The position numbers and the translations under genes are program-made. A DNA stretch of 64,000 nt from Terrabacter sp. MAHUQ-38 (lineage in GTDB: Bacteria; Actinomycetota; Actinomycetes; Actinomycetales; Dermatophilaceae), in the NCBI RefSeq assembly GCF_014518425.1, contig NZ_JACVCU010000001.1, positions 1,054,001 to 1,118,000 of the forward strand, read 5' to 3'. The notes beneath the pieces are model-generated. The model was given only the letters and a program-made list of their open reading frames with translations, made no database searches and was not told the origin of the DNA. Shown here piece after piece: positions 4,290 to 19,555 of this stretch. Numbering within the stretch: position 1 is the first letter of the stretch; each line of letters begins with the position of its first letter.

Positions 4290-4388
4290 CCGCGCACCGG
4301 TCGACGGCGACACCAGCACCAGACCGCAGCACGACACAGCAGCACCACTCACCGCACCACCCCTCGTTTCGCTCACCTAGGAGTCAGC

Positions 4389-5450
4389 GTGTCCGCATCC
4401 CTTCCCCGCACGACCAAGCGCGTCGCCGTCCTGGCGATCACCATGAGCACGGCACTCGTCGCCGCCGGCTGCACGAGCAACGACCCGGTCACGACTCCCG
4501 CCGCCTCGACCCAGCAGGCAGGCGGCAACGCCGCGAGCGACAACGACGCCCCGGGCGACAAGGTCGTCATCGGCTTCTCGGGCCCGGCCGCCGACCACGG
4601 CTGGCTCGGCGCCATCAACAGCGCCGCCCAGGCGGAGGCCAAGAAGTTCAGCGACGTCGAGCTCAAGGTCGCCGAGGGCACCAACGACGCCAGCCTTCAG
4701 ATCAGCCAGATCGAGACCTTCATCAACGACAAGGTGGACGCCATCGTGCTGCTGCCGACCGACGGCGCCGCCCTCACCGAGGTCGCGACGAAGGCCATGA
4801 ATGCCGGCATCCCCGTCATCAATGTCGACCGTGAGTTCTCCAGCCCGTTCGCCGCGCGCGCCACGATCCTCGGCGACAACTACGGCATGGGCGTCTCCGC
4901 CGGCACGTACGCCTGCAAGGTCGTCAAGGACAAGAACCTCACCAACCCGGTCATCACCGAGATCGCCGGCATCGACGCCCTCCCGCTGACGCAGGACCGC
5001 AGCAAGGGCTTCGCCGACGCCCTCAAGGCGTGCGACCAGACCGTCGACAACCGCGTCGCCGCCGAGTTCACCGTCGAGTCCGGCAACCGCCAGGCCGCCA
5101 ACCTGCTGCAGGCCGCGACGAAGATCGACATCCTGTGGAACCACGACGACGACCAGGGTGTCGGCGTCATGGCGGCCCTGGACCAGGCGGGCCGCCACGA
5201 GATGGCCTTCATCGGTGGCGCCGGCTCGGCCAACGCGATGCGCTGGATCCAGGAGGGCAAGATGGCGGCCACCGTCCTCTACCCGCCGACCCAGGCGGCT
5301 GACGGCATCAAGCTGGCCCGCCTCATCGCCCAGGACAAGGGCATCAGCGACCTCGTCCAGGTCGAGGTGCCGCGACGCATCGTCCTCAACGCCCCCGTGG
5401 TCACCAAGGAGAACGTCGCCGAGTACCTCCCTCTCGGGTTCGAGTCCTGA
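4389..5450 (+). CDS. Sugar ABC transporter substrate-binding lipoprotein
   Basis: 353 residues starting at a GTG with AGGAG 5-10 bases upstream (4379-4383). The signal peptide ends in a lipobox VAAGC with Cys28 as the lipidation site, followed by a Thr/Ala/Asn-rich linker. The rest matches the periplasmic binding protein type 1 fold of RbsB-like proteins (VVIGFSGPAADHGWLGAI, then DAIVLLPTDGAALT). It should capture a sugar or cyclitol outside the membrane. It is last in the ATPase-permease-binding protein order and is followed by a strong hairpin. The ligand cannot be assigned. Confidence 0.93.
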   Translation: MSASLPRTTKRVAVLAITMSTALVAAGCTSNDPVTTPAASTQQAGGNAASDNDAPGDKVVIGFSGPAADHGWLGAINSAAQAEAKKFSDVELKVAEGTNDASLQISQIETFINDKVDAIVLLPTDGAALTEVATKAMNAGIPVINVDREFSSPFAARATILGDNYGMGVSAGTYACKVVKDKNLTNPVITEIAGIDALPLTQDRSKGFADALKACDQTVDNRVAAEFTVESGNRQAANLLQAATKIDILWNHDDDQGVGVMAALDQAGRHEMAFIGGAGSANAMRWIQEGKMAATVLYPPTQAADGIKLARLIAQDKGISDLVQVEVPRRIVLNAPVVTKENVAEYLPLGFES

Positions 5451-5565: not shown

Positions 5566-6798
5566 ATGACGACACCCAGCAAGCCCACCCTCGGGGTCGG
5601 GATGATCGGCTACGCCTTCATGGGGCGAGCCCATTCCCAGGCCTGGCGCAACGCCCGCAGCTACTTCGACGTGCCGGCGACGCCGGACCTCGTCGCGGTC
5701 GCCGGGCGCAACGAGGCTGCGGCCCGCGACACCGCGGACCGGTTCGGCTGGGCCGAGGTGGAGACGGACTGGCGCCGGCTTCTCGAGCGTGACGACATCG
5801 ACATCATCGACATCTGCACGCCGGGCGACACCCACGCCGAGATCGCCGTCGCGGCGCTCGAGGCGGGCAAGCACGTCCTCTGCGAGAAGCCGCTCGCCAA
5901 CTCCGTCGAGGAGGCCGAGACCATGGTGCGGGCCGCCGAGCGCGCCGGGGAGCGGGGCATCCGCTCGATGGTCGGCTTCACCTACCGCCGCGTCCCGGCC
6001 ATCGCGTACGCGCGACAGCTGGTCGCCGAGGGACGGCTAGGGCGCATCCTCCACGTGCGCGGGGCCTACCTGCAGGACTGGCTCGTCGACCCGGAGTCGC
6101 CGCTGACGTGGCGCCTGCAGAAGGAGCGGGCCGGCTCGGGTGCGCTGGGCGACATCGGTGCCCACATCGTCGACCTGGCCCAGTTCGTCACCGGTGAGAC
6201 CCTCACGGGCGTCTCGGCCCTCACCGAGACGTTCGTGCGCGAGCGTCCCGTCGCCGATCCCGCGACGCTCGGCACCGGTGGCATCAGTGCCACAGCCGCA
6301 CGCAACGGCGCCAGCAAGACGGGCGCCGTCACCGTCGACGACGCCGCCGTCCTCGTGTCGCGGCTGAGCGGCGGCGCCCTCGCGACCTTCGAGGCGACCC
6401 GCTTCGCCCACGGTCGCAAGAACGCGATCCGCCTGGAGATCAACGGGACCGACGGGTCGCTCGCCTTCGAGTTCGAGGACATGAACGTCCTGCACGTCTT
6501 CGACGGCACCGCGCCGAGCCGTGACGCCGGGTTCACGCGGGTGCTCGTCACCGAGTCCGCCCACCCCTACGTGGCGGCCTGGTGGCCGCCCGGCCACGTC
6601 CTGGGCTACGAGCACGGCTTCACCCACCAGGCGGTCGACCTGCTGACCGCCATCGCCGAGGGCATCGACCCCCGGCCCACCTTCTCCGACGGGCTCCAGG
6701 TGCAGCGGATCCTGTCGGCCGTCGAGACGAGCGCGGAGCGGGAGGGGTCCTGGACCCCGATCGACGGGGCCCGCGCGGCGTCCTCGGCACTGTCCTGA
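5566..6798 (+). CDS. Gfo/Idh/MocA family oxidoreductase
   Basis: 410 residues. The N-terminal Rossmann fold shows GMIGYAFMGRAHSQA (about 12-26), and the family motif EKP lies at 107-109 (CEKPLAN). The C-terminal alpha/beta domain includes GDIGAHIVDLAQF, where the His is a usual catalytic residue. Enzymes of this family oxidise or reduce a sugar or inositol hydroxyl with NAD(P). With a sugar importer upstream and a TIM-barrel isomerase downstream, oxidation of the imported sugar or cyclitol (for example to a 3-keto or inosose product) is a reasonable inference. The ATG at 5566 gives the usual family N-terminus. Confidence 0.92.
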   Translation: MTTPSKPTLGVGMIGYAFMGRAHSQAWRNARSYFDVPATPDLVAVAGRNEAAARDTADRFGWAEVETDWRRLLERDDIDIIDICTPGDTHAEIAVAALEAGKHVLCEKPLANSVEEAETMVRAAERAGERGIRSMVGFTYRRVPAIAYARQLVAEGRLGRILHVRGAYLQDWLVDPESPLTWRLQKERAGSGALGDIGAHIVDLAQFVTGETLTGVSALTETFVRERPVADPATLGTGGISATAARNGASKTGAVTVDDAAVLVSRLSGGALATFEATRFAHGRKNAIRLEINGTDGSLAFEFEDMNVLHVFDGTAPSRDAGFTRVLVTESAHPYVAAWWPPGHVLGYEHGFTHQAVDLLTAIAEGIDPRPTFSDGLQVQRILSAVETSAEREGSWTPIDGARAASSALS

Positions 6799-6892: not shown

Positions 6893-8008
6893 ATGCACCA
6901 CGACAACGACGTCAACCCGCTCAAGCTGGCGAAGGGTCTCGGCCTCAACCGTCGGCAGTTCATGGCCGCCACCACGGGCATGGCCGCTGCCGCCGCCGTG
7001 ACCGTCGCCGGCGCCGGGACCGCCCTCGCCTCGACCGCCAGCGGAGTGGTCGTGCCGCCCGGCAAGCGCGGCATCATCCTCTACACCGTCCGTGACGCCA
7101 TCTCGCGCGACCCGTCCACCAGCCCGTACGCGTCGGGCTTCAAGGCGGTCTTCGAGGAGCTCGGGCGCATCGGCTACAAGCAGGTGGAGTTCGCCGGCTA
7201 CGGCCAGAGCGCGAACGCCCCCGGAGGCAACGTCAACAGCGTCGACGGCGCCCGCCTGCTGCGCACGTGGCTCGACGACAACGGGCTCGAGGCCGAGGGC
7301 AACCACGGCTCGATCCCGTCGACCATCACGGACGCCACGCTCGCGTCGTTCGACGCAGCCTGCGAGGTCGCCAACATCCTCGGCATGCAGCACATCGGCA
7401 CGGGCAGCGACCCGACGAACAGTGCCTACGTCGCGGACTGGGCCGCGGCTGCCGAGCGCTGGAACATCCTCGGCGCGCGAGCTGCCTCCCACGGCCTCAA
7501 GCTCTACACGCACAACCACGACATCGCGTACAGCTTCCTTCTCGACAGCGGCCCGCTGGACGACCTGGGTCGACCGACCCGCTCGTCCGGCATCCGCCGT
7601 CTCGAGTACTTCCTGGCCAACACCGACCCGGAGTACGTCTACCTCGAGATGGACATCTTCTGGGCGCACGTCGCGAAGTTCAAGCACACGGCATACACGG
7701 CTCCCGACGGCACGGCGGTCAGCTCGATCTTCAACCCGCTCGGAGTCGTCCAGGCCCAGCCGATCCGGTTCCCGCTCTTCCACGCGAAGGACGGCGACTA
7801 CCAGCCGGAGACGCCGAACGGCTACGCGATGGTGCCCTTCGGCACGGGCGACATCGACTACACGACGTTCCTCAGCAAGACCGGCGCGAGGGGCTACCAC
7901 AACCCGATGTACGAGCAGGACAACGCTCCCGGTGGCGCGGCGAACCCGGGCCAGTCGCTGGAGTTCGCGCGGACGAGCTACGCCAACCTGGCTGCCCTGC
8001 GCGCCTGA
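6893..8008 (+). CDS. Tat-exported sugar phosphate isomerase/epimerase (TIM barrel)
   Basis: 371 residues with a twin-arginine signal: NRRQFMAAT at 19-27, a hydrophobic Ala-rich core, and likely cleavage after TALA near residue 47. The mature part is an AP-endonuclease-2 / xylose isomerase-like TIM barrel (IILYTVRDA, QVEFAGYG, EGNHGSIPS, HNHDIAYSF, LEMDIFWAH) with probable metal-binding His, Glu and Asp. Tat export implies cytoplasmic folding, perhaps with bound metal, before secretion. AAGGAG precedes the ATG. Extracellular homologues occur beside Gfo/Idh/MocA enzymes and may act on keto-sugars or keto-glycosides; that role here is inference. Confidence 0.88.
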   Translation: MHHDNDVNPLKLAKGLGLNRRQFMAATTGMAAAAAVTVAGAGTALASTASGVVVPPGKRGIILYTVRDAISRDPSTSPYASGFKAVFEELGRIGYKQVEFAGYGQSANAPGGNVNSVDGARLLRTWLDDNGLEAEGNHGSIPSTITDATLASFDAACEVANILGMQHIGTGSDPTNSAYVADWAAAAERWNILGARAASHGLKLYTHNHDIAYSFLLDSGPLDDLGRPTRSSGIRRLEYFLANTDPEYVYLEMDIFWAHVAKFKHTAYTAPDGTAVSSIFNPLGVVQAQPIRFPLFHAKDGDYQPETPNGYAMVPFGTGDIDYTTFLSKTGARGYHNPMYEQDNAPGGAANPGQSLEFARTSYANLAALRA

Positions 8009-8109: not shown

Positions 8110-11100
8110 ATGAATGCTACAAGTCCCCGAAGGGGACGGAGGGCGGTTGCGGCAACAGCAGCCGCCATCCTCAGCCTGTCCACCCTGGGCGGTGTCCTCG
8201 CGACCCCTGCCCTCGCACACGACGGTGTCGACCACGGCATCGAGCCCGCGCTCGACTGGTCCAACTACGAGAAGATCACGCTCACCAAGGACACGGGGGA
8301 GCCGATCGACCTGGCCGTCCTGCCGGACCGTCGGGTGCTCACCACCGCCCGCAACGGTGACGTACGCCTTGTCGACCCGGACACGGGCGTGACCAAGGTC
8401 GTCAACACCCTGCCCGTCTACAACAACTCCGAGGACGGCCTCCAGACCGTCACGCTCGACCCGGACTTCGCGACGAACAAGTGGGTCTACCTCTACTACG
8501 CGCCGAAGACCATGACGGCGCCCTACCCGACGACGACGCCCTCCGGCTCGGCGCCGAACAGCCTGCCCGCCGGCGCCGACGCCAGCTACTGGGACCAGTG
8601 GAAGGGCTACAACCAGCTGAGCCGCTTCACGTGGGACGACGCCGCCGACAAGATCGACCTGTCGACCGAGCAGGTCATCATCAAGGTCGAGACGCAGCGC
8701 GGCCAGTGCTGCCACGTCGCCGGCGACGTCGACTTCGACGCCGACGGCAACCTCTACCTCTCGACGGGTGACAACACGCCGGCGAGCGCGCCGGGTGCCA
8801 ACGGCTTCGCGCCAAACAACAACACGCCGGGCTTCAACCCCGGCTTCGACTCGCGCCGCGGCGCCGGCAACACGAACGACCTGCGCGGCAAGATCCTGCG
8901 CATCCACCCCGAGGCCGAAGGCGGCTACACGATCCCGCCGGGCAACCTCTTCCCGGAGGGCACGGCCAAGACCCGTCCCGAGATCTTCGTCATGGGGGTG
9001 CGCAACCCGTTCCGCATCGACGTGGACCCGCAGGCGAACTCTGTCACGTGGGGCGACTACGGCCCCGACGCCGGCGCGCCGGACCCGCAGCGTGGCCCGA
9101 TGGGCTACGTCGAGTGGCAGACGACGGCCATCACCAAGCCGATCAACGGCGGCTGGCCGTACTGCACCGCCGACGCGAAGAACTACAACGAGTGGGACTT
9201 CGCCACGGCGACGCCCGGCCCGTTCTTCGACTGCGCAGCCGGCGCCAAGAACAACTCGACGCTCAACACCGGCCTCGCGGTGGTCCCGCCGGCCACCGCG
9301 GCGACGCTCTACTACGGCGACAACAACACCCATCAGCCGTGGCCCGAGCTGACCGACTTCTCGGCGGCCGGCGGCCAGGGCCCGATGGGCGGGCCGGTCT
9401 ACCACTACGACGCCGACAGCACGTCGACGACGAAGTTCCCGGCGTACTGGGACAGCAAGGCGTTCTTCGCGGAGTTCTCCCAGGACTACCTCGCGGTCTT
9501 CGACGTGCAGTGGCCCGACGGACCCGTCGACCACATCACGAACTTCCTGCCCAACGCCGACCTCGAGACGAACGGGCAGCCGATCACCGACAGCCCCATC
9601 GACATCGAGTTCGGCCCGGACGGCTCGCTCTACGTCCTCGACTACGGCGACGGCTTCTTCCGGGCCAACCCCGACGCGGGTCTCTACCGGATCGACTACT
9701 CGCCCGGCAACAAGGCGCCGCAGCCGAAGATCTCGGCGAACCCGATCAGCAGCAGCAGCGCTCCGCTGACCGTGCAGTTCGACGGCAGTGACTCGGTCGA
9801 CCCCGAGGCCGCGGCGCTGACGTTCGAGTGGGACTTCGACGGCAACGGCACGTTCGACGCCACCGGCGCCAAGACGAGCTTCACGTACACCGAGCTCGGC
9901 AGGTACCCGGCCCGCCTGCGCGTCACCGACCCGGAGGGCCGCCGCGGCCTGACGAGCACGTCGATCAGCGTCGGCAACGTCGCCCCCACCGTCACCATCG
10001 CGAACCCGCCGAGCGGCGCGTTCTTCGACTGGGGCCAGGCCGTGCCCTTCAGCGTCACGACTTCCGACCCCGAGGACGGCACCGCAACCGTGTGCCCGCG
10101 CGTCTCGTGGACCTTCGGTCTGGGCCACGACGCGCACGCCCACCCGCTCAGCCAGGGCACCGGATGCCAGTTCGCGATCCCGACCCCGGCCGACGCGACC
10201 CAGCACGGCGAGACCGAGAACATCTTCGGCGTCGTCGTCATCACCTACACCGACAACGGCGCGAACGGCCTGCCCGGTGCGACGACCACCGAGCAGCTCG
10301 TGCTCAACCCGAAGAAGCAGGAGGCCGAGTGGGCCGACGCGACCGAGGGCGTCGAGCTGACGAACGACGACACCGCGAGCGGCCTTCGCAAGGTCACCTC
10401 GTTCGACGCCGGTGACTGGCTGGCCTGGGACCCGGCGAACCTCGTCGGCGTCACAGGAGTGACCACTCGGGCCAGCGGCTCGGGCACCCTGTCACTGCGG
10501 TGGAGCTCGCCGACGGCGACGCCGTTCGGCACGATCGCCGTGGACGGCGCCGGCTGGACGAACGCGACAGCGACGCTCTCGTCCAAGCCCGCCGGCACCG
10601 GCCGCCTGTACGTCACGTCGACGGGCGGGGTCGTGCTCGACTCGCTCGGCTTCGTCGGGGACGGCGGCGCCGACGTCACGCCGCCGGCCGTCTCCGCGAC
10701 GCTGAACCCGGCGGCCCCGAACGGTGCGAACGGGTGGTACACGAGCAACGTCACCGTGACGGTCAACGCGACCGACAACGGCACGGTCGCCTCGCGTCAG
10801 CGGTCCACCGACGGCGGCGCCACGTGGGTCAACGCGAACACGGCGCTGACGATCGCCACCGAGGGCACGACCACCGTGCTATACCGGGCGACCGACAACG
10901 GCGGCAACGTCAGCGAGGTCGGCTCGGTGACGGTCAAGCGCGACACGTCGCAACCCGCGATCGCAGTGTCCGGTGCCACCGACGGCGCGTCCGTCGGCGA
11001 CTCCGGCAACGTGACGTGGACGGCGACGGACGGGGCGAGCGGCATCGACACCGTCTCGGCGCGAGTCGACGGCGCGGCAGTCCCGGCGGACCAGCCGCTG

Positions 11101-11454
11101 GCCCTGTGGAAGCTGACGCTGGGCAGCCACACCCTCGTCGTCACGGCGAAGGACAGGGCCGGACTCGTCCGCACGACCACGACGACGTTCACCACGACGA
11201 CGTCGTTGACCGAGCTGACGAAGCTCACCGAGCGCCTGGCCCGCGAGGGCCTCGTGACGCGGTCCGGGGAGACCCTCCTGGAGAAGCGCCTGCAGCAGGC
11301 CGCGAAGAACGTGGCCGCCGGTCGGAAGGACGCCGCGATCTCCCAGCTCCAGGAGTTCGTCGTGCTCGCGAAGTCGGCCGCCAACGTGTCCGACACCACG
11401 GCATCGGCTGCGCTGCAGCGCGACGCCGACGCGGTCATCGCCTCGCTGCGCTGA
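8110..11454 (+). CDS. Secreted PQQ-type sugar dehydrogenase with PKD, CBM6-like, Ig-like and FIMAH-like modules
   Basis: 1114 residues. A Sec signal peptide ends at ATPALA (about residue 36). The catalytic part (about 45-530) is a glucose/sorbosone dehydrogenase-like beta-propeller (DFDADGNLYLSTGD, GVRNPFRIDVDP, PIDIEFGPDGSLYVLDYGDG). It is followed by a PKD domain (about 535-625), a mixed beta region, a CBM6-like carbohydrate-binding stretch (about 730-855), Ig-like repeats (about 856-1030) and a C-terminal helical FIMAH-like domain (about 1031-1114). The family oxidises sugars with PQQ; the electron acceptor and whether PQQ is bound are not visible. It probably works on a polymer or glycoside outside the cell, alongside the Tat-exported isomerase. 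Confidence 0.85.
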   Translation: MNATSPRRGRRAVAATAAAILSLSTLGGVLATPALAHDGVDHGIEPALDWSNYEKITLTKDTGEPIDLAVLPDRRVLTTARNGDVRLVDPDTGVTKVVNTLPVYNNSEDGLQTVTLDPDFATNKWVYLYYAPKTMTAPYPTTTPSGSAPNSLPAGADASYWDQWKGYNQLSRFTWDDAADKIDLSTEQVIIKVETQRGQCCHVAGDVDFDADGNLYLSTGDNTPASAPGANGFAPNNNTPGFNPGFDSRRGAGNTNDLRGKILRIHPEAEGGYTIPPGNLFPEGTAKTRPEIFVMGVRNPFRIDVDPQANSVTWGDYGPDAGAPDPQRGPMGYVEWQTTAITKPINGGWPYCTADAKNYNEWDFATATPGPFFDCAAGAKNNSTLNTGLAVVPPATAATLYYGDNNTHQPWPELTDFSAAGGQGPMGGPVYHYDADSTSTTKFPAYWDSKAFFAEFSQDYLAVFDVQWPDGPVDHITNFLPNADLETNGQPITDSPIDIEFGPDGSLYVLDYGDGFFRANPDAGLYRIDYSPGNKAPQPKISANPISSSSAPLTVQFDGSDSVDPEAAALTFEWDFDGNGTFDATGAKTSFTYTELGRYPARLRVTDPEGRRGLTSTSISVGNVAPTVTIANPPSGAFFDWGQAVPFSVTTSDPEDGTATVCPRVSWTFGLGHDAHAHPLSQGTGCQFAIPTPADATQHGETENIFGVVVITYTDNGANGLPGATTTEQLVLNPKKQEAEWADATEGVELTNDDTASGLRKVTSFDAGDWLAWDPANLVGVTGVTTRASGSGTLSLRWSSPTATPFGTIAVDGAGWTNATATLSSKPAGTGRLYVTSTGGVVLDSLGFVGDGGADVTPPAVSATLNPAAPNGANGWYTSNVTVTVNATDNGTVASRQRSTDGGATWVNANTALTIATEGTTTVLYRATDNGGNVSEVGSVTVKRDTSQPAIAVSGATDGASVGDSGNVTWTATDGASGIDTVSARVDGAAVPADQPLALWKLTLGSHTLVVTAKDRAGLVRTTTTTFTTTTSLTELTKLTERLAREGLVTRSGETLLEKRLQQAAKNVAAGRKDAAISQLQEFVVLAKSAANVSDTTASAALQRDADAVIASLR

Positions 11455-11539: not shown

Positions 11540-12685
11540 ATGACCGACGTACGAACCGGACTGTGGCTGGTCGGCGCGCGTGGCTCGGTGGCCACGACAG
11601 TGGCGACCGGCCTGGCGCTCATCACGGCGGGCGGTGCCGGGACCGACGGCCTCGTCACCGAACAGGGCGAGCTCGCCGGCCTCGGCCTAGTCGCCCTCGA
11701 CGGCCTCGTCATCGGCGGGCACGACGTCACGGAGGTGCCGCTGGCCAAGCGGGCGGCCCAGCTCGCCGAGGCCGGGGTCATCCCGCACGATGCACTCCGG
11801 CTCGTGTCGGACCACCTGGACCGCGACTGCGCCCGTATCCGCATCGGCCATCGGGAGGGCGCCGAGCCCCAGCAGGATGCCGTCGAGCGTCTCGCCGCCG
11901 ACATCCGCGCCTTCGCGGAGGCCGAGTCGCTGGCGCGGGTCGTCGTCGTCAACGTCAGCTCGACCGAGCCGGTCGTGGACGCCGACCCAGCACACGAGTC
12001 GCTCGAGGCTCTCGAAAGCGCTTGGGCCGCAGGCGAGTCCCCGTTACCACCGAGCTCGGTCTACGCCGCGGCCGCGTGCGCCGCCGGTGCAGCCTTCATC
12101 GACTTCACCCCCTCGACGGGTGCCCGCCTCCCGGCCCTCGCCGAGCTGGCCGAGCGCCACGGCGTGCCGTGGGGCGGCAGCGACGGCAAGACCGGCGAGA
12201 CGCTCGTGAAGTCGGTCCTCGCGCCGATGTTCGCCGCACGCTCGCTCCGGGTCCGCTCGTGGGCCGGCACGAACCTCCTCGGCGGCGGAGACGGCGCCAC
12301 CCTCGCCGACCCGCACGCCATGGAGAGCAAGGCGCGCAGCAAAGCACGGGGCCTCGAGGCGATGCTCGGCCACCCCGTCGACGGGCCCGTCCACATCGAC
12401 AACATCGCCGACCTCGGCGACTGGAAGACGGCGTGGGACCACCTCACCTTCTCGGGCTTCCTCGGCACGCGCATGTCGATGCAGTTCACCTGGCAGGGGT
12501 GCGACTCGAGCCTTGCCGCGCCGCTCGTCATCGATCTCGCCCGGCTCGCCGACCTCGCGCTGCGACGGGGTGAGGTCGGCCCGCTGCCCGCACTCGGCTT
12601 CTTCTTCAAGGACCCCGTCGGCTCGGACGAGCACCGGCTCTTCGAGCAGCACCGAGCCCTGACGGAGTGGGCGACGGCGTCGTGA
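11540..12685 (+). CDS. Inositol-3-phosphate synthase family protein
   Basis: 381 residues. The NAD-binding start GLWLVGARGSVATT and the family motifs FIDFTPSTG, GSDGKTGET and NLLGGGDGATL are present, as is the SKARSK segment that carries the paired active-site lysines of myo-inositol-1-phosphate synthases. Real synthase chemistry (glucose-6-phosphate to inositol-3-phosphate) therefore looks possible. GAGGAGA lies before the ATG at 11540. It opens a run of eight same-strand genes that resembles the ebo metabolite cluster, and its stop overlaps the UbiA gene. It could instead make a different cyclitol from a related sugar phosphate. Confidence 0.9.
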   Translation: MTDVRTGLWLVGARGSVATTVATGLALITAGGAGTDGLVTEQGELAGLGLVALDGLVIGGHDVTEVPLAKRAAQLAEAGVIPHDALRLVSDHLDRDCARIRIGHREGAEPQQDAVERLAADIRAFAEAESLARVVVVNVSSTEPVVDADPAHESLEALESAWAAGESPLPPSSVYAAAACAAGAAFIDFTPSTGARLPALAELAERHGVPWGGSDGKTGETLVKSVLAPMFAARSLRVRSWAGTNLLGGGDGATLADPHAMESKARSKARGLEAMLGHPVDGPVHIDNIADLGDWKTAWDHLTFSGFLGTRMSMQFTWQGCDSSLAAPLVIDLARLADLALRRGEVGPLPALGFFFKDPVGSDEHRLFEQHRALTEWATAS

Positions 12686-13569
12686 CCGGGCTACGCGACC
12701 TCGTCGAGCTGGTGCGGGCACCGGCCGCCCTGACAGTGCCCGGCGACACGCTGGCCGGCGCCGCGAGCGCATGCTGGCCCGCCGGCATCCGTTCGGCGGC
12801 GCTGCCCGTCGCCTCGACGTGCCTCTACTGGGCGGGCATGGCGCTCAACGACTGGGCGGACCGGAAGATCGACGCGGTCGAGCGCCCCGAGCGGCCGATC
12901 CCCTCGGGTCGCGTGCCCGCGTCGACGGCCCTCGCCGTCGCGGGCGGCCTCACGGCAGCCGGGGTCGCGGTCGCGGCCGTCGCAGGCGGTCGCCGGTCCG
13001 CTGCAACCGCCGCGGTCCTCGCCGCGGCGGTGTGGGCGTACGACCTCTCCCCGAAGCAGGGACCGCTGAGCGTCGCGACGATGGCCTCGACGCGTGGCCT
13101 CGACGTGCTCCTGGGGGCGAGCACGGGCGGCGGAGCAGGCCTGCGCCGCGCCGCCGCGCCGGCCGCGCTCGTAGCCCTGCACACCGCCGGTGTGACCGCC
13201 CTGAGCCGCGGGGAGGTGCACGGCGGCTCGACGGTCGTGGCCCGGGCGTGCGTTGCGGCCACGACCGTGGTCGCGACCGCCTCGACCCTGCGGCCCAGCG
13301 CACGACGTGGGCCCGGCGGAGGCCTCGGCGCCGCCGTCTCGGTCGCCCTCACCGGGTGGTATGCCGTCAGCGTCGTCCGTGCCCAGCTGGCCGCCGCGCG
13401 CACTCCGGACGCGACGACGGTCCGCCGGGCCACCGGCGCCGGTATCCGCGGTCTCGTGCCACTCCAGGGTGCAGCGCTCGCGGCCGCCGGTCACTCCGGC
13501 CTCGCCCTGGGCCTCGCGGCGTCGGCCCCGGCCGGCGCGTACGCGATGAAGCGGGTGTCGGCGACATGA
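12682..13569 (+). CDS. UbiA-family prenyltransferase (SCO3242/EboC-like)
   Basis: 295 residues from the GTG in a GTGA overlap; an in-frame GTG at 12667 would add five residues. It has about 7-9 hydrophobic segments. The UbiA metal motif appears as NDWADRKIDAVERPERPIPSGR (shown by its Asn-Asp, Asp and Asp residues near 54-64), and YDLSPKQ resembles the second Asp motif. UbiA enzymes transfer an isoprenoid chain to a polar acceptor in the membrane. Being sandwiched between a cyclitol synthase and EboA/EboB/EboE relatives points to prenylation of a cluster-specific metabolite (inferred). It overlaps the next gene by ATGA. Confidence 0.88.
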   Translation: MTGLRDLVELVRAPAALTVPGDTLAGAASACWPAGIRSAALPVASTCLYWAGMALNDWADRKIDAVERPERPIPSGRVPASTALAVAGGLTAAGVAVAAVAGGRRSAATAAVLAAAVWAYDLSPKQGPLSVATMASTRGLDVLLGASTGGGAGLRRAAAPAALVALHTAGVTALSRGEVHGGSTVVARACVAATTVVATASTLRPSARRGPGGGLGAAVSVALTGWYAVSVVRAQLAAARTPDATTVRRATGAGIRGLVPLQGAALAAAGHSGLALGLAASAPAGAYAMKRVSAT

Positions 13570-14447
13570 GCCTGCGCTTCGGCTACGGCCTCAACGGCTT
13601 CACAGACCATCGCCTGGAGGACGCGCTCGCCCTCCTCGCCGACCTCGGCTACGACGGTGTCGCACTGACCCTCGACCATGCGCACCTCGACCCGTTCGCG
13701 CACGACCTGTCCGCGCGTGTCGCCCGGGTCGCGGCCCTGCTCGCCCGCCACCGCCTCGGCGTCGTCGTCGAGACGGGCGCCCGGTACGTCCTGGACCCGC
13801 GCCGCAAGCACGAGCCGACGCTCGTCTCCGACTCGGGCCGGGAGCGACGGATCGACCTGCTGGAGGGGGCAATTCGTGTGGCGGCAGAGGTCGGCTCGCC
13901 TGCGGTGTCGTTCTGGAGCGGGATCGCGCCGCGTGCCGTCTCCCGCGCGGAGCTGTGGTCGCGCGTCGAGGACGGTGTCGCTGCCCTGCTCCCGGTCGCC
14001 GAGGCGGACGGCGTCGACCTCGCTCTCGAGCCGGAACCCGGGATGTTCGTCGAGAGGATCTCCGACGTGGTCGAGCTGCGCCGCCGGCTCGGAGACCCTG
14101 ACCGGCTGCGGCTCACCGTCGACGTGGGTCACCTGCGCTGCACGGAGGACGCCGAGCCGGCGGCCTGTGTGCTCGGCGCCGGCGACCTCGTCGCCAACGT
14201 GCAGATCGACGACATGCGCCGCGGCGTTCACGAGCACCTGCCGCTCGGCGAGGGTGAGGTCGACTTCCCACCGGTGCTCGCAGCGCTCGCGGCCGTCGAG
14301 TTCGGCGGGCTCGTCGCGGTCGAGCTGCCGCGGCACTCGCACGCCGCCCCGACGCTCGCCGCATCGAGCCTCGAGTTCCTGCGTGACGCCGAACGGCGTG
14401 CGCAGGCCGCATCCGACACGCGACGACCCCAGGAGGTGGCCCGATGA
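13566..14447 (+). CDS. TIM-barrel sugar phosphate isomerase/epimerase, ebo-like cluster
   Basis: 293 residues, an AP-endonuclease-2 type TIM barrel: GYGLNGFTDH at the start, DGVALTLDHAHLDP, VVETGARYVLDP, LALEPEPGMF (metal-ligand Glu), LTVDVGHLRC (Asp and His) and NVQIDDM. The EPEPG segment is shared with the EboE gene three positions downstream, suggesting related active sites. It overlaps both neighbours (ATGA at each end), so it is fully embedded in the operon. The substrate is unknown; a phosphorylated cyclitol or keto-sugar is the natural guess. Confidence 0.87.
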   Translation: MSLRFGYGLNGFTDHRLEDALALLADLGYDGVALTLDHAHLDPFAHDLSARVARVAALLARHRLGVVVETGARYVLDPRRKHEPTLVSDSGRERRIDLLEGAIRVAAEVGSPAVSFWSGIAPRAVSRAELWSRVEDGVAALLPVAEADGVDLALEPEPGMFVERISDVVELRRRLGDPDRLRLTVDVGHLRCTEDAEPAACVLGAGDLVANVQIDDMRRGVHEHLPLGEGEVDFPPVLAALAAVEFGGLVAVELPRHSHAAPTLAASSLEFLRDAERRAQAASDTRRPQEVAR

Positions 14448-15043
14448 GTGCCTCCACGACGGACGACGCGCTCGCGCAGGTCGCGAGCGATCCCGACTCC
14501 GTCGAGCGCCACTTCGCGGCCGCCGCTCGGGTCGCGGCGCGGGAGGGACGCGACGGCGACGCCGCCCGCGAGGCCCTGCTCCTGGCGCTGCCGGGCCGGG
14601 CTGCCGAGGTCGTCACCCGGCTCACCCACCTCTACGCGCACGGCGACGCCGCCGAGCGCCGGGCCGTGCTCCTCGCCCTGCCGGCGCTCGACGCTCCCGA
14701 CCGGTCCTCACCGATCGCCGACGCCGCGCTGCCCATCGTGCGAGATGCCCTGCGCACCAACGACACCCGCCTCGTCACCGCCGCCGTTGGTCCATACGCC
14801 GCCGCCCACCTCGACGACGACGCGTGGCGCCAGGCGGTGCTCAAGGTGCTCTTCACCGGCATCCCGGTGGAAAACGTCGCCGGCCTCGCCGAACGCGCGG
14901 ACGGCGAGCTGGCCCGCATGGTGGGCGACTACGCCGCAGAGCGCGAGGCCGCCGGACGCGTCGTCCCACCGGACGCCCGCACCGTGCTCGCCCTGGCCCG
15001 GTCCCAGCATCCGCCCGTCACCCGTCCCGCCCGAGCCGACTGA
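14444..15043 (+). CDS. eboA: EboA domain-containing protein
   Basis: 199 residues, Ala-rich and predicted mostly helical. The pattern HFAAAARVAARE, then NDTRLVTAAVGPYAAAHLDDDAWRQAVLKVLFTGIP and ARMVGDYAAEREAAGR, matches EboA proteins of the ebo cluster, which have no assigned catalytic activity. In cyanobacteria the cluster is needed to move scytonemin precursors to the periplasm. The gene overlaps the previous one by 4 bases and is 9 bases from the TatD gene. Assignment rests on the helical pattern and the flanking genes. Confidence 0.82.
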   Translation: MSASTTDDALAQVASDPDSVERHFAAAARVAAREGRDGDAAREALLLALPGRAAEVVTRLTHLYAHGDAAERRAVLLALPALDAPDRSSPIADAALPIVRDALRTNDTRLVTAAVGPYAAAHLDDDAWRQAVLKVLFTGIPVENVAGLAERADGELARMVGDYAAEREAAGRVVPPDARTVLALARSQHPPVTRPARAD

Positions 15044-15052
15044 GGAGCCGCC

Positions 15053-15922
15053 GTGCGCATCTTCGACCCCCACATCCACATGACCTCCCGCACGACCGAC
15101 GACTACCAGCGCATGCACGCCGCCGGGATCCGCGCCGTCGTGGAACCGTCGTTCTGGCTCGGCCAGCCTCGCACCAGCCTCGGGTCGTTCTGCGACTACT
15201 TCGACTCGCTGCTCGGCTGGGAGCCGTTCCGCGCGTCGCAGTACGGCATCGCGCACCACGCGACGATCGGCCTCAACCCGAAGGAGGCCAACGACGCCCG
15301 CTGCCGCGAGGTGCTCGACGTGCTGCCGCGCTACCTCGCCAAGGACCGTGTCGTCGCGGTCGGCGAGCTCGGCTACGACTCGATGACGCCCGAGGAGGAC
15401 GCCGTCTTCGCCGCGCAGCTCGAGCTCGCCGCCGAGCACGAGCTGCCCGCCCTCGTGCACACACCGCACCGCGACAAGCTCGCCGGCACCCGCCGCACCC
15501 TCGACGTCGTCAGCGAGTCGGCCCTCGAACCCGGCGCCGTCCTCGTCGACCACCTCAACGAGATGACGGTCGGGGTCGTGGCCGAGTCAGGCGCCTGGAT
15601 GGGCTTCTCGGTCTACCCCGACACGAAGATGGACGAGCACCGCATGGTCGAGATCCTGCGCCGCTTCGGGCTCGACCGGATGATCGTCAACTCGGCCGCC
15701 GACTGGGGCAACAGCGACCCGCTCAAGACGGTGCGCGTGGCCGAGGCCATGCTCGCGGCCGGCTACACCGACGACGACGTCGACCGCGTGCTGTGGCGCA
15801 ACCCCGTGGAGTTCTTCGCCCAGAGCGGCCGCCTCGAGCTGCCCGACACGGAGGCGCCCGAGCTCGTCGGCGCTGGTGCGACCTTCATGGGCAACTCCGT
15901 GCTGCGCGGTGCGAGGGACTGA
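15053..15922 (+). CDS. TatD family hydrolase (EboB-like)
   Basis: 289 residues from a GTG. The metal-binding HxH of the amidohydrolase superfamily is DPHIH (H7, H9). Further ligands are likely in VGELGYD (Glu), VHTPHRDK (His), VDHLNEMT (His) and NSAADWG (Asp). TatD-type enzymes use two divalent metals to hydrolyse phosphoesters or related bonds. The position between EboA and EboE matches EboB in known ebo clusters, where a hydrolase acts on an unidentified metabolite. It ends 2 bases before the EboE start. Confidence 0.88.
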   Translation: MRIFDPHIHMTSRTTDDYQRMHAAGIRAVVEPSFWLGQPRTSLGSFCDYFDSLLGWEPFRASQYGIAHHATIGLNPKEANDARCREVLDVLPRYLAKDRVVAVGELGYDSMTPEEDAVFAAQLELAAEHELPALVHTPHRDKLAGTRRTLDVVSESALEPGAVLVDHLNEMTVGVVAESGAWMGFSVYPDTKMDEHRMVEILRRFGLDRMIVNSAADWGNSDPLKTVRVAEAMLAAGYTDDDVDRVLWRNPVEFFAQSGRLELPDTEAPELVGAGATFMGNSVLRGARD

Positions 15923-15924
15923 CA

Positions 15925-17115
15925 GTGCGCCTGCTCCACGCCGACGGCCAGACCGTCCACGTCGCGTACTGCACCAACGTCCACCCGGGTGAGGACCTCG
16001 ACACGATCATCGGGCAGCTCGACCGCTTCGCCGTGCCCGTACGTCGCCACCTCGGAGCCGACGCGCTCGGCCTCGGCCTGTGGCTCAGTGCGCCGGTCGC
16101 GCGCGAGCTGGCGCGCGACCCGCGGCAGGTCGACCGGCTCCGCACCGCGCTGGACGCGCGCGCCCTCGAGGTCGTCACGCTCAACGGCTTCCCGTACCGC
16201 GGCTTCCAGGACGAGGTCGTCAAGCACCGGGTGTACCACCCCGACTGGACCGAGCCGTCGCGCCTGACGTACACGACTGACCTCACCGAGGTGCTCGCGC
16301 GGCTGCTGCCCGACGACGCCGCCCGCGGCAGCATCTCGACCCTTCCGCTCGGCTGGCGGCACCCGTGGTTCGGTGACCGGCAGGTCCTCGCGGCCGAGCA
16401 GTTCGACCGGCTCGCCGACCACCTCCACGCCCTGCGAGACCGCACCGGACGCGAGATCCGGGTCGGCGTCGAGCCGGAGCCCGGCTGCGTCATCGAGACG
16501 ACGACCGAGCTCGTCGACCGGATGGCCGGCTGGGACGGGGAGGTGCTCGGCGTGTGCCTCGACCTGTGCCACCTCGCCGTCGGTTTCGAGGACGCCGACG
16601 TCGCGGTGCGGCGCCTGTCCGCCGCCGGCCGCCGCGTCGTCAAGGCGCAGGTGTCCGCAGCGCTCCACGTCGAGCACCCCGCCGACGACGCGACCCGCGG
16701 CGCCCTCGGCGCCTTCGACGAGGACCGGTTCCTGCACCAGGTGCGTGCCTGCGGCGACCACGGCCAGCTCCGCGGGCGCGACGACCTCGGCGAGGCGCTC
16801 GGCGGGCGCCGACCGCTCGACCCGGCGCCCGGTGGGACCGAGCGACCGTGGCGCGTCCACTTCCACGTGCCGCTCGGGCACGCCCCTGAGCCGCCGCTCG
16901 CGGCCACGACTGCTGACCTGCGCGCGTCGCTCGGCGTCCTCGTCGGTGGCGACACGGCGCTGACCGACCACCTCGAGGTCGAGACCTACACGTGGTCGGT
17001 CGTGCCCGAAGCGGTCCGTCCCACCGACGACGCGGCCCTCGCGGTGAGCATCGCCGGCGAACTGGCCTGGCTGCGCGACACCCTCATCGACCTCGGACTC
17101 AAGGAGCCCGCATGA
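15925..17115 (+). CDS. eboE: Metabolite traffic protein EboE (TIM barrel)
   Basis: 396 residues from the GTG at 15925. Characteristic stretches are AYCTNVHPGEDLDTI near the N-terminus, VVTLNGFPYRGFQDEVVK, STLPLGWRH, VGVEPEPGCVIETT, GVCLDLCHLAVGF and KAQVSAALHV, plus the late HFHVPLGH. These fit EboE, a xylose-isomerase-like barrel found in ebo clusters. Such proteins are genetically linked to export of a metabolite precursor, but the reaction is unproven. Its stop overlaps the next gene by ATGA. This is the best single marker that the operon is ebo-related. Confidence 0.88.
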   Translation: MRLLHADGQTVHVAYCTNVHPGEDLDTIIGQLDRFAVPVRRHLGADALGLGLWLSAPVARELARDPRQVDRLRTALDARALEVVTLNGFPYRGFQDEVVKHRVYHPDWTEPSRLTYTTDLTEVLARLLPDDAARGSISTLPLGWRHPWFGDRQVLAAEQFDRLADHLHALRDRTGREIRVGVEPEPGCVIETTTELVDRMAGWDGEVLGVCLDLCHLAVGFEDADVAVRRLSAAGRRVVKAQVSAALHVEHPADDATRGALGAFDEDRFLHQVRACGDHGQLRGRDDLGEALGGRRPLDPAPGGTERPWRVHFHVPLGHAPEPPLAATTADLRASLGVLVGGDTALTDHLEVETYTWSVVPEAVRPTDDAALAVSIAGELAWLRDTLIDLGLKEPA

Positions 17116-18497
17116 ACCCTGTCCTTCTCCTCGACGTCGTCGGGCTGACGCCACGGGCGCTCGCCGACATGCCGCGCCTGCGCCGCCTCGCCGCGTCGGG
17201 CTGGCAGACCTCGCTCGAGACCGTCCTTCCCGCCGTCACCTGCTCGGTGCAGTCGACGATGCTGACCGGGCGCCCGCCCGCCGAGCACGGCGCGGTCGGC
17301 AACGGGTGGTACTTCCGCGACCTCGGCGAGGTCTTCCTGTGGCGCCAGCACAACGCGCTCGTCGAGGCGGAGAAGGTGTGGGACGCCTTGCGACGCAGGC
17401 ACCCCGACGCCCGGGTCGCCAACGTCTGCTGGTGGTTCGCCATGGGCATGGACGTCGACTCCGTCGTCACCCCACGGCCGATCTACCACGCCGACGGACG
17501 CAAGTCGCCGGACTGCTACACGCGGCCGCCCGCCCTGCACGACCGGCTCGTCGACCGGCTCGGGCCCTTCCCGCTCTTCCACTACTGGGGTCCGACGGCG
17601 TCGATCGCGTCCTCGCGCTGGATCGTCGAGGCCACGCGGATGCTGCTGCCCGAGCACGACCTGACGCTCGCCTACGTGCCGCACCTCGACTACGACCTCC
17701 AGCGGTTCGGCCCGGAGTCGCCCCAGGCCCGGGCCGCCGCGCGCGAGGTCGACGCCGTCCTCGCACCGCTCCTCGACGACGCCGAGCGGCTCGGCGTCAG
17801 CGTCCTCGTCGTCAGCGAGTACGGCATCACCGCCGTCGACCAGCCCGTCGACGTCAACCGCGTGCTGCGCCGGGCCGGCCTGCTCGAGGTGCACACGCAG
17901 GCCGGCATGGAGTACCTCGACCCGTGGACGTCGGAGGCGTTCGCCGTCGCCGACCACCAGGTCGCCCACGTCTACGTCCGGGACCCCGACCGTGTCGCCG
18001 AGGTGCGCACCCTGCTGGCCGCCACTCCGGGCGTCGAGCAGGTGCTCGACCGGGCCGGCCAGACGGCATACGGCCTCGACCACGAGCGCACCGGGGACCT
18101 CGTCGTGGTCGCCGAGCCCCGGGCGTGGTTCACGTACTACTACTGGCTCGACGACGAGCGCGCGCCCGACTTCGCCCGCGGCGTCGAGATCCACCGCAAG
18201 CCCGGCTACGACCCCGCCGAGCTGTTCTTCGACCCCGCCGACCGCTCGGCCAAGGCGCGGGCCGGGCTCAGCCTCGTCCGCAAGAAGCTCGGCCTCCGGT
18301 ATGCGATGAAGGTCGTCCCGCTCGACCCGCGCTGGGTGCGCGGCAGCCACGGGCGCCTGCCCGACGACCCGGTGGACGGCCCCGTCGTCATTGCGTCCGA
18401 CGCGGCCCTGCGGCGTGAGAGCGTGGCGGCAGCGGATGTCCACGACCTCGTCCTCGAGGCAGCCGGCGTCGCCGTCGCCCAGCCCAGCCACCCCTGA
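17112..18497 (+). CDS. Alkaline phosphatase superfamily / nucleotide pyrophosphatase-phosphodiesterase
   Basis: 461 residues. The fold starts with [13 protein letters not shown] (Asp8, a metal ligand), then [15 protein letters not shown] with Thr43 in the nucleophile position, and [13 protein letters not shown] with Asp and His ligands. Where most family members have SDHG, this one has SEYG, replacing an Asp-His pair; this may be normal for the subfamily or change metal binding. It overlaps EboE by 4 bases, so a phosphodiester step on the cluster's product (for instance removing a nucleotide or prenyl phosphate) is plausible. There is no signal peptide, so it acts inside the cell. Confidence 0.85.
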
Positions 18498-18498
18498 C

Positions 18499-18537
18499 CA
18501 GCAGCAACCCACAGCAGCAACCCACAGCAGCAAGGAG
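18499..18537 (+). repeat. Three 13-base direct repeats ahead of isomerase gene
   Basis: CAGCAGCAACCCA occurs at 18499-18511 and 18512-18524, and a third copy at 18525-18537 diverges only at its end to CAGCAGCAAGGAG, where the change creates the ribosome-binding site of the gene at 18545. Confidence 0.85.
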
Positions 18538-18544
18538 ATCCACG

Positions 18545-19555
18545 ATGGCCCGACCGATCACCCTCTTCACCGGACAGTGGGCCGACCTGCCCTTCGAGGA
18601 GATGTGCCGCCTTGCCGGCAAGTGGGGCTACGACGGCCTCGAGCTCGCGTGCTGGGGCGACCACTTCGAGGTCGACCGCGCCCTCACCGAGGACGGCTAC
18701 ATCGAGTCGCGCCGCGAGATCCTCGAGAAGAACGGCCTGCAGGTCTGGGCCATCTCCAACCACCTCGTCGGCCAAGCCGTGTGCGACGACCCCATCGACC
18801 AGCGCCACCAGGACATCCTCCCGGCCGCGGTGTGGGGCGACGGAGACCCCGAAGGCGTGCGCCGGCGGGCCGCCGAGCGGATGGCCGACACGGCCCGTGC
18901 CGCCGCGAAGCTCGGCGTCGACACCGTCATCGGCTTCACCGGCTCGGCCATCTGGAAGTACGTCGCGATGTTTCCGCCGGTGGGCGACGACGTGATCCAG
19001 GAGGGGTATGCCGACTTCGCGCGCCGCTGGAACCCGATCCTCGACGTCTTCGACGAGGTCGGCGTGAGGTTCGCCCACGAGGTGCACCCCAGTGAGATCG
19101 CGTACGACTACTGGAGCACCGTCGCGACGCTCGAGGCGATCGGGCACCGCGAGGCGTTCGGCCTGAACTGGGACCCCAGCCACATGGTGTGGCAGGACCT
19201 CGACCCGGCTGCGTTCATCTGGGACTTCAAGGACCGGATCTACCACGTCGACTGCAAGGACACCCGAAAGCGGATCGGCAACGGCCGCAACGGTCGCCTG
19301 GGTTCGCACCTGCCGTGGGGCGACCCGCGCCGCGGCTGGGACTTCGTCTCGACGGGCCACGGCGACGTGCCGTGGGAGGACTGCTTCCGCACCCTCAACG
19401 CGATCGGCTACGACGGCCCGATCTCGATCGAGTGGGAGGACGCCGGGATGGACCGCCTCGTCGGGGCCCCGAACGCGCTCGAGTACGTCCGCGCGCTCAA
19501 CTTCGAGCGCCCGCAGGCCTCCTTCGACGCGGCATTCAGCAGCTCCAAGGACTGA
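18545..19555 (+). CDS. Sugar phosphate isomerase/epimerase (TIM barrel)
   Basis: 336 residues with an AAGGAG site before the ATG. It is an AP-endonuclease-2 family barrel: [15 protein letters not shown] (Glu), [12 protein letters not shown] (His), [13 protein letters not shown] (Glu and His), [10 protein letters not shown] (Asp and His), VDCKDTRKR and [11 protein letters not shown] (Glu). This full metal-ligand set suggests an active isomerase/epimerase. It closes the same-strand ebo-like run, 47 bases after the phosphodiesterase, and is the fourth barrel of this general type in the locus if EboE is counted. The substrate is not known. Confidence 0.9.

Follow-up and report, generated by a model that had tools for sequence, protein, structure and literature searches.

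An actinobacterial form of the ebo operon in which an inositol-phosphate synthase and a TIM barrel appear to take the place of EboD

The ebo operon (eboABCDEF) occurs in cyanobacteria, in Bacteroidota and in the plastids of eustigmatophytes (PMC5133447; PMC6282210). A role in delivering a metabolite to the periplasm is known to us for Nostoc alone, where ebo mutants retain the scytonemin monomer in the cytoplasm; eboD was not among the genes tested (PMC6282210). From EboD and EboC together, Yurchenko et al. (2016) argued that the operon makes an isoprenoid-cyclitol compound, and they also pointed to actinobacterial EboA proteins joined to a xylose-isomerase-like portion; their main text never uses the word "inositol" (PMC5133447). 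Ebo regions were also compared across taxa, an actinobacterial genus included, in the work on the prenyltransferase UbiA-297 (Flavobacteria, Saccharomonospora), where the regions are described with EboD and "inositol" is absent from the main text (PMC9235831). Here we describe an ebo operon of a different make-up, located in a stretch of 64,000 nucleotides from Terrabacter sp. MAHUQ-38 (assembly GCF_014518425.1, contig NZ_JACVCU010000001.1, forward-strand positions 1,054,001 to 1,118,000; "the window" below means this whole stretch). Like the canonical operon, it unites an EboA-domain protein, EboB, a UbiA enzyme, EboE and EboF. Unlike the canonical operon and the UbiA-297 regions, it has, instead of EboD, an inositol-3-phosphate synthase (I3PS) and a triosephosphate isomerase (TIM) barrel, TIM1; it also differs from the canonical operon in its gene order and in its UbiA enzyme, which belongs to the SCO3242 family rather than to the EboC model. 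The gene content, the exchange, the catalytic residues and the linkage to secreted enzymes discussed below are all read from sequence.

Parts of this arrangement have been met elsewhere. In the calcium-dependent antibiotic (CDA) region of Streptomyces coelicolor, the consecutive locus tags SCO3242 and SCO3243 denote a putative transferase and a myo-inositol phosphate synthase; an expression table and its accompanying text list the pair as CDA-cluster genes and make no link to ebo (PMC3610822). The model NF045897, which the UbiA enzyme of the window matches, is named for SCO3242. The parts are already named in NCBI models ("SCO3242 family" among them), and NCBI annotation shows them adjoining in Streptomyces plasmids. 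In the open-licence PMC literature we found no account of the exchange of EboD for I3PS, of its restriction to genomes with ebo genes or of the haloarchaeal sets described below, and no identification of the ebo product.

Seven genes of the window form a tight run on the plus strand (11540-18497), with 4-bp overlaps or gaps of at most 9 bp. The run opens with the I3PS gene of the ebo clade (11540-12685; PF07994 5.5e-50, PF01658 4.7e-31) and continues with the UbiA prenyltransferase that is the counterpart of EboC (12682-13569; NF045897 343.6 bits, cut-off 260), the xylose-isomerase-like barrel TIM1, partner of I3PS (13566-14447; PF01261 2.1e-40), the helical protein EboA (14444-15043; domain model NF035938 173 bits, cut-off 50), the TatD-family hydrolase EboB (15053-15922; PF01026 3e-15), the TIM barrel EboE (15925-17115; NF035939 424 bits, cut-off 250) and EboF, a phosphodiesterase or nucleotide pyrophosphatase (17112-18497; PF01663 1e-61). 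A second barrel, TIM2 (18545-19555; PF01261 2.3e-42), follows on the same strand. From stop to start, the distances are -4 bp for I3PS/UbiA, UbiA/TIM1 and TIM1/EboA, +9 bp for EboA/EboB, +2 bp for EboB/EboE, -4 bp for EboE/EboF and +47 bp for EboF/TIM2. An earlier note on this DNA had counted six genes with 4-base overlaps or gaps under 10 bases; the tight spacing holds, and the count becomes seven because the phosphodiesterase gene overlaps that of EboE by 4 bp and encodes the homologue of EboF, a core member of the operon. That note had also called the operon ebo-like, and the profile models indeed place its EboA and EboE in their families. A promoter scan returned none, a terminator scan returned three against 2.2 expected, all on the minus strand, and the window holds no tRNA gene.

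EboD was not found in the host genome, which is 100% complete (5.16 Mb in 18 contigs). Its single match to 3-dehydroquinate (DHQ) synthase is 37% identical to the EboD of Deinococcus over part of its length, and no bona fide EboD was found outside the operon, from which the earlier note had reported it absent; the EboDs of Deinococcus, Ketogulonicigenium and one actinobacterium (G301) share 52-61% mutual identity. A search with the Deinococcus protein covered 34 genomes, 27 EboE-positive actinobacteria and 7 of the family of the window: true EboD was found in G301 only (62%), the rest reached at most 40%, and one genome (G422, 81% complete) gave no match. The ebo locus of G301 (L042) has EboD and no I3PS.

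For comparison with EboD-type loci, an EboE alignment headed by that of L042 was run on named genomes. The 80 loci used are the best 80 of 579 confirmed, ranked by likeness to the EboD-type EboE, and they show the companions of that EboE rather than prevalence; they come from cyanobacteria, Bacteroidota, Chloroflexota, Acidobacteriota and others. The stretches reach up to 21 kb in this set (22 of the 80 are under 20 kb, which leaves fewer flanking genes visible), up to 20 kb in the actinobacterial set and 30 kb for the window. EboD is present in 76 of these best 80, the fetched stretches without it being L103, L123, L124 and L153, whereas I3PS, TIM1 and TIM2 each occur in none of them. Among 29 actinobacterial loci (window included), TIM1 is present in 26. 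With TIM1 so frequent there, and with neither I3PS nor TIM1 in the best 80, the two genes I3PS and TIM1 together stand in for EboD.

EboE was found in 27 of 396 actinobacterial genomes, in 26 of these over the cut-off, and in 8 of the 99 genomes of the window's own family. From 26 EboE-positive genomes besides the host, 28 EboE loci were fetched; these and the window make up the 29. The order I3PS-UbiA-TIM1-EboA-EboB-EboE-EboF recurs in 24 of the 28, counting L040, where I3PS is cut to 116 residues. An ebo-I3PS profile run over the 396 genomes, with matches listed only at E <= 1e-60, gave 26 matches at 551-638 bits in 25 genomes, every one EboE-positive, and a next best match at 339 bits. The ebo-type I3PS is accordingly present in 25 of the 27 EboE-positive genomes and in none of the 369 EboE-negative ones; the two EboE-positive genomes without it are G301, with EboD instead, and G244, with a broken operon. 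No p value is given for this contrast because the genomes are related, and locus counts are not independent events. The 25 genomes span seven families, and in the window's own family seven of eight further loci, from seven genomes, hold all seven genes plus TIM2. The I3PS form, which the earlier note had seen in a single genome, is a conserved and widespread variant of the ebo operon in actinobacteria, with the same seven genes in order, and not a one-off. We hold the genetics of the exchange with high confidence.

A number of loci speak against so simple a picture. One (L035) has no I3PS, its sister locus in the same genome (L038) having one; L042 is an EboE locus of the EboD type; L045 lacks TIM1; L061 (G244) has a broken EboE, a partial UbiA and neither I3PS nor TIM1; L040 has the truncated I3PS; and L203 and L187 hold a lone EboE. 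L040 and L061 seem to be true relics, although assembly faults are possible. The lone EboE of L203 (G485) is 36% identical to that of the window, with no other ebo genes within 20 kb, and the genome also has a full I3PS-type operon. At L042, the sole EboD-type actinobacterial locus in the draw, a flavin mononucleotide (FMN) enzyme (Pfam FMN_dh) follows EboF; we take it to resemble type 2 isopentenyl diphosphate isomerase.

The I3PS of the window belongs to the Ino1 superfamily by PF07994 and PF01658 and by its catalytic N and K residues. Among solved structures, it comes closest to Ino1 of Archaeoglobus fulgidus (1u1i) and to the K278A, K367A and N255A mutants of that enzyme, with E from 4.5e-62 to 5.9e-61. 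Its structural model has the same fold (TM 0.89-0.90), and it shares the catalytic residues of A. fulgidus Ino1; the two proteins are 36% identical and differ in gene setting and at position 259, Asp in A. fulgidus and Gly in the window. Among 11 positions inspected, seven (D225, N255, K274, K278, K306, D332 and K367) are invariant across the 29 actinobacterial ebo I3PS. Position 234 has K or R, 27 of the 29 retain D310, and positions 259 and 329 differ from A. fulgidus Ino1. D225, K274, K306 and D332 belong to the catalytic residues. The earlier note had proposed a cyclitol synthase with an intact lysine motif in the EboD slot, and the lysines of this SKARSK motif do align with K274 and K278 of A. 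fulgidus Ino1. A relic or dead synthase was considered for the window and rejected because the seven key residues are intact.

A tree built from 54 rows unites the ebo I3PS in a single group (support 100/99), far from housekeeping Ino1, and the mycothiol-type Ino1 model TIGR03450 is not matched (47.3 of 638 bits). The host genome has a separate Ino1 at C1:742156, which groups with the housekeeping type. In another genome, G237, the ebo I3PS is the only I3PS, and none was found in the seven other members of its family that were tested (G206, of the same genus, and six more); the best MshA match of G237 has 144 bits, and those of five genomes from other families have 408-663, two of the five also falling under the 462.5 cut-off. 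Thus, the ebo operon supplies an I3PS of its own even in a genome in which none besides it was found.

Among the partner proteins, the UbiA enzyme misses the EboC model NF035940 (128.5 bits under 250), and its motif NDxxDxxxD is present in 11 of 11 aligned sequences, canonical and archaeal ones included. TIM1 residues E155, D186, H189 and E253 are conserved in 31 of 31 aligned; TIM1 and TIM2 score 27.3 and 41 bits on the IolE model, far under its cut-off of 290. Gemmatirosa has TIM2, as do 12 of 29 actinobacterial loci. EboA misses the narrower family model NF035937 (81.3 bits under 320). Its AlphaFold model is all helices (predicted local distance difference test score 94.4), and a fold search against the PDB gave no match at E <= 0.001, so that no function follows from the fold. 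EboB, assigned by Pfam (the libraries used hold no EboB-specific model), is 65-75% identical to the window protein in 27 of the 28 fetched loci, 42% in EboD-type L042 and 37-54% in the best 80 of 579 EboD-type-scan loci where one was found; EboF of the window is 55% identical to that of L042. A polyprenyl synthetase gene, or a weak match to one, adjoins the operon in 3 of 29 loci: 110 bp upstream of I3PS in L034 (PF00348), and just downstream of EboF in L053 and L054 (57-62 bits). Together with the conserved UbiA motif, these genes would suit a pathway that draws on a prenyl supply. Away from ebo, plasmids of Hymenobacter and Roseomonas (L210, L211) carry a separate operon of I3PS, a TIM1 homologue, a Gfo/Idh oxidoreductase and a YcaO-like protein, and on two Methylobacterium plasmids a span of about 6 kb has matches to both I3PS and TIM1; all these homologues share 47-50% identity with TIM1 of the window. 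This recurrence suggests that an I3PS product is the substrate of TIM1 in more than one pathway.

Related sets reach beyond actinobacteria, to one other bacterial phylum (Gemmatirosa) and to haloarchaea, both sampled as plasmid records. On plasmid 2 of Gemmatirosa kalamazoonensis, one strand carries I3PS, UbiA, TIM1, EboB and EboF, and the opposite strand carries EboE and TIM2 next to them; no EboA was found at this locus. Plasmids of Halocatena, Natronococcus and Halobaculum hold together TatD, TIM1-like barrels, UbiA, I3PS and a relative of EboF, in sets of the type TatD-TIM-UbiA-TIM-I3PS-phosphodiesterase, with I3PS 43-47% identical to that of the window. They share relatives of EboB, UbiA, TIM1, I3PS and EboF with the window and differ from it in EboA and EboE, since no protein of the Halocatena set, the one scanned, matches either model; the Halocatena UbiA is intermediate between the models for EboC and SCO3242, below both cut-offs. 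Three of the four ebo-like haloarchaeal sets (L188, L189, L190, L212) have I3PS, and the fourth, Haladaptatus L212, carries the archaeal set with no nearby I3PS, a further point against the exchange as a rule. A sugar dehydrogenase gene of the pyrroloquinoline quinone (PQQ) type lies about 2 kb (Natronococcus) and about 6 kb (Halocatena) from the set, next to an ATP-binding cassette (ABC) importer, and these dehydrogenases have a weak halocyanin- or plastocyanin-like (blue-copper) similarity, below model cut-offs; none was found near the Halobaculum set.

What the operon makes is a separate matter from its genetics. We lean, if only slightly, towards the view that the locus makes a prenylated, cyclitol-derived membrane molecule that would serve the delivery or oxidation of metabolites outside the cytoplasm, with I3PS and TIM1 replacing EboD. 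We infer its substrate, its product and every step of the route as follows. I3PS would cyclize glucose 6-phosphate, or a near relative of it, to give a cyclitol phosphate; an Ino1-type route would leave the phosphate on the ring, unlike the route through EboD. TIM1, predicted to be a metal-dependent barrel, would isomerize, epimerize or dehydrate the ring, and the UbiA enzyme would add a polyprenyl chain in the membrane. EboB, EboE and EboF would complete the head group, and EboA would act as a helical scaffold. Such a lipid-linked product would let the cell move or process a metabolite outside the cytoplasm, in the window together with a secreted sugar dehydrogenase. A prenylated cyclitol, as the earlier note had suggested, is a plausible product and resembles what Yurchenko et al. 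put forward for the EboD type (PMC5133447); the chances that the chemistry is as proposed are about even. The cyclitol half of the idea of Yurchenko et al. gains support from the presence of two unrelated enzymes, both forming cyclitols, in a single slot. Weighing on the other side, neither form of the operon has a product or activity known here, and UbiA-297, an EboC homologue of marine bacteria, farnesylates quinolines in vitro, its 14 tested acceptors all being aromatic and cyclitols hence untried (PMC9235831). For this reason, an aromatic or quinol product is a lesser possibility.

The residue at position 259, four after N255, bears on the identity of the ring. It is Gly in 29 of 29 actinobacterial ebo I3PS and Asn in all 36 other I3PS aligned (23 housekeeping and 13 others, including Gemmatirosa and haloarchaea), a clade-wide difference that lies near the active site, and for this reason the product may not be inositol 3-phosphate. 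Ari2 (6k96), a superfamily member with another cyclitol product and a much more distant sequence, is entered as a five-membered-cyclitol-phosphate synthase; therefore, relatives of Ino1 can change product. It is a real if minority possibility that the ebo I3PS likewise makes a non-inositol cyclitol, everything else being as proposed above (a sub-case, whose probability overlaps with that of the parent). For the window I3PS, however, A. fulgidus Ino1 is the closer of the two (E 4.5e-62, against 6.7e-14 for Ari2), and the catalytic lysines are those of true Ino1.

The genes upstream of the operon invite another reading. A glucose/sorbosone dehydrogenase (GSDH) of 1114 residues with PKD, CBM6 and FIMAH domains (8110-11454; PF07995 1.1e-28), judged secreted from its signal-like N terminus, ends 85 bp before I3PS. 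It is preceded, also on the plus strand, by a secreted TIM barrel of the twin-arginine translocation (Tat) type (6893-8008; PF01261 1.9e-13, N-terminal RR motif by inspection), a Gfo/Idh/MocA oxidoreductase (5578-6798; PF01408 2.2e-29) and a sugar ABC transporter (1660-5450; PF00005, PF13407) made up of an ATPase (1660-3189), a permease (about 3186-4289, from the open reading frame list) and a binding protein (4389-5450). The genes of the locus as first delimited (11540-19555) lie where the earlier note placed them, but its upstream limit was drawn too short, since the oxidoreductase, Tat-type barrel and secreted dehydrogenase precede it in the same orientation; the transporter is possibly part of the same regulon. 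A divergent ROK-family gene on the minus strand (358-1551; PF00480 3e-62) encodes a candidate regulator, and ROK-like matches also occur in L053 (weak), L058 and L060.

Linkage to secreted enzymes recurs among the actinobacterial loci; along with the ScyD/ScyE gene of Streptomyces camelliae (see below) and the PQQ-type dehydrogenase genes of two haloarchaea, it favours chemistry outside the cytoplasm. GSDH is present in the fetched stretch of 19 of 29, ThuA in 16 and the Tat-type barrel in 16, against 3, 6 and 2, respectively, of the best 80 of 579 EboD-type-scan loci. GSDH is spread over five families out of seven, f33 having it at 28-29% identity only. Both it and the Tat-type barrel are found in six of the seven full loci of the window's family, the exception (L206) beginning at a contig end. 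Of 29 I3PS loci, 18 have, directly upstream of I3PS, a gene whose product begins with a signal-like segment: in 12 it is ThuA or GSDH-ThuA, in one GSDH, in one ScyD/ScyE, in two an unknown protein of Tat type and in two a secreted TIM barrel. Secretion was called from family, inspection of the N terminus and a hydropathy rule rather than SignalP, and L034 and L057, with a hydrophobic stretch at an internal start, are left uncounted. The linkage has gaps that tell against it: no secreted protein was found directly upstream in 11 of the 29, and GSDH is missing from 10 of the 29 actinobacterial stretches and from Halobaculum while being seen in three of the best 80. Thus, GSDH is not an obligate partner. 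Three EboD-type loci of Flavobacteriia (L138, L144, L166) also have GSDH and ThuA genes nearby. A PqqC search of the host genome gave no match, its controls being likewise silent.

These neighbours and the operon could instead form a regulon for sugar or cyclitol catabolism. A compound taken up by the ABC importer would be degraded with the help of the Gfo/Idh oxidoreductase, the secreted dehydrogenase and the TIM barrels, and the ebo genes would act on an intermediate of this degradation. Besides the same-strand genes and the divergent ROK regulator of the window, this would account for G335, whose I3PS is truncated at its ebo locus (L040) and whose intact ebo-clade copy sits elsewhere (L191) in a cluster of sugar ABC, Gfo/Idh, TIM2, Tat-type TIM barrel and GSDH genes, and for the BMP-type ABC importer near three of the four haloarchaeal sets, all but that of Halobaculum. 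We consider it unlikely, in that UbiA prenyltransferases do not usually take part in catabolism, GSDH is so often missing and other I3PS-type operons are found among genes of secondary metabolism instead. On a Streptomyces camelliae plasmid (L175), a ScyD/ScyE family gene (NF033206 243 bits, cut-off 80) lies directly upstream of I3PS; elsewhere in Streptomyces, the operon stands beside nonribosomal peptide synthetase genes (L176) and in a type II polyketide cluster (L186). Because its Streptomyces copies adjoin such pathways, the ebo I3PS operon would fit an accessory module recruited to different pathways. L175 also has a multicopper oxidase gene downstream and an aromatic prenyltransferase gene nearby, and so recalls the scytonemin region, outside cyanobacteria. 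Another Streptomyces plasmid (L187) has a type II polyketide cluster with a lone eboE; we take the gene set of L186 and L187 to resemble diazofluorene clusters.

UbiA enzymes classically prenylate aromatics, which raises the possibility of a redox molecule: the cyclitol would be dehydrated to a polyhydroxylated aromatic, prenylated and used as an electron carrier or cofactor for the secreted oxidising enzymes. The weak similarity of TIM1 and TIM2 to myo-inosose dehydratase would suit such a quinol, as would its redox neighbours (GSDH, the multicopper oxidases of L175 and L189 and the haloarchaeal dehydrogenases with their weak blue-copper similarity) and the prenylation of quinolines by UbiA-297 (PMC9235831). 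The IolE scores given above, 27.3 and 41 of 290 bits, do not establish a dehydratase. We know of no such quinone and rate this alternative improbable. That I3PS does no more than provide the inositol phosphate needed for phosphatidylinositol or mycothiol, its place beside ebo genes being due to chance, can hardly be right and was rejected: although it is an Ino1 superfamily member with intact catalytic residues, the host has its own housekeeping-type Ino1, the ebo enzyme misses TIGR03450 and stands apart in the tree, its type is confined to EboE-positive genomes, and G237 has it alone, with no clear MshA, in a family whose seven other tested members have no I3PS.

The proposal of a prenylated cyclitol-derived membrane molecule can also be cast more boldly. 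Bacteria and haloarchaea might share an undescribed pathway from an Ino1-made cyclitol to a prenylated, membrane-held cofactor, perhaps a quinol, for secreted oxidising enzymes such as sugar dehydrogenases, ScyD/ScyE propellers and multicopper oxidases; the EboD and I3PS forms would then be two ways into one type of molecule, and loss of that cofactor or carrier would explain the "transport" defect seen when ebo is mutated in cyanobacteria. We regard this wider proposal as doubtful and offer it as speculation.

For the ebo family as a whole, the occurrence of two unrelated cyclitol-forming enzymes in one slot argues for a cyclitol as the starting point of the pathway and for ring formation as the step that varies. 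The presence of the I3PS form in Streptomyces and other actinobacteria, together with the well-known substrates and products of Ino1, makes the question of the ebo product directly testable, and the recurrent linkage to secreted oxidising enzymes provides a second handle on function.

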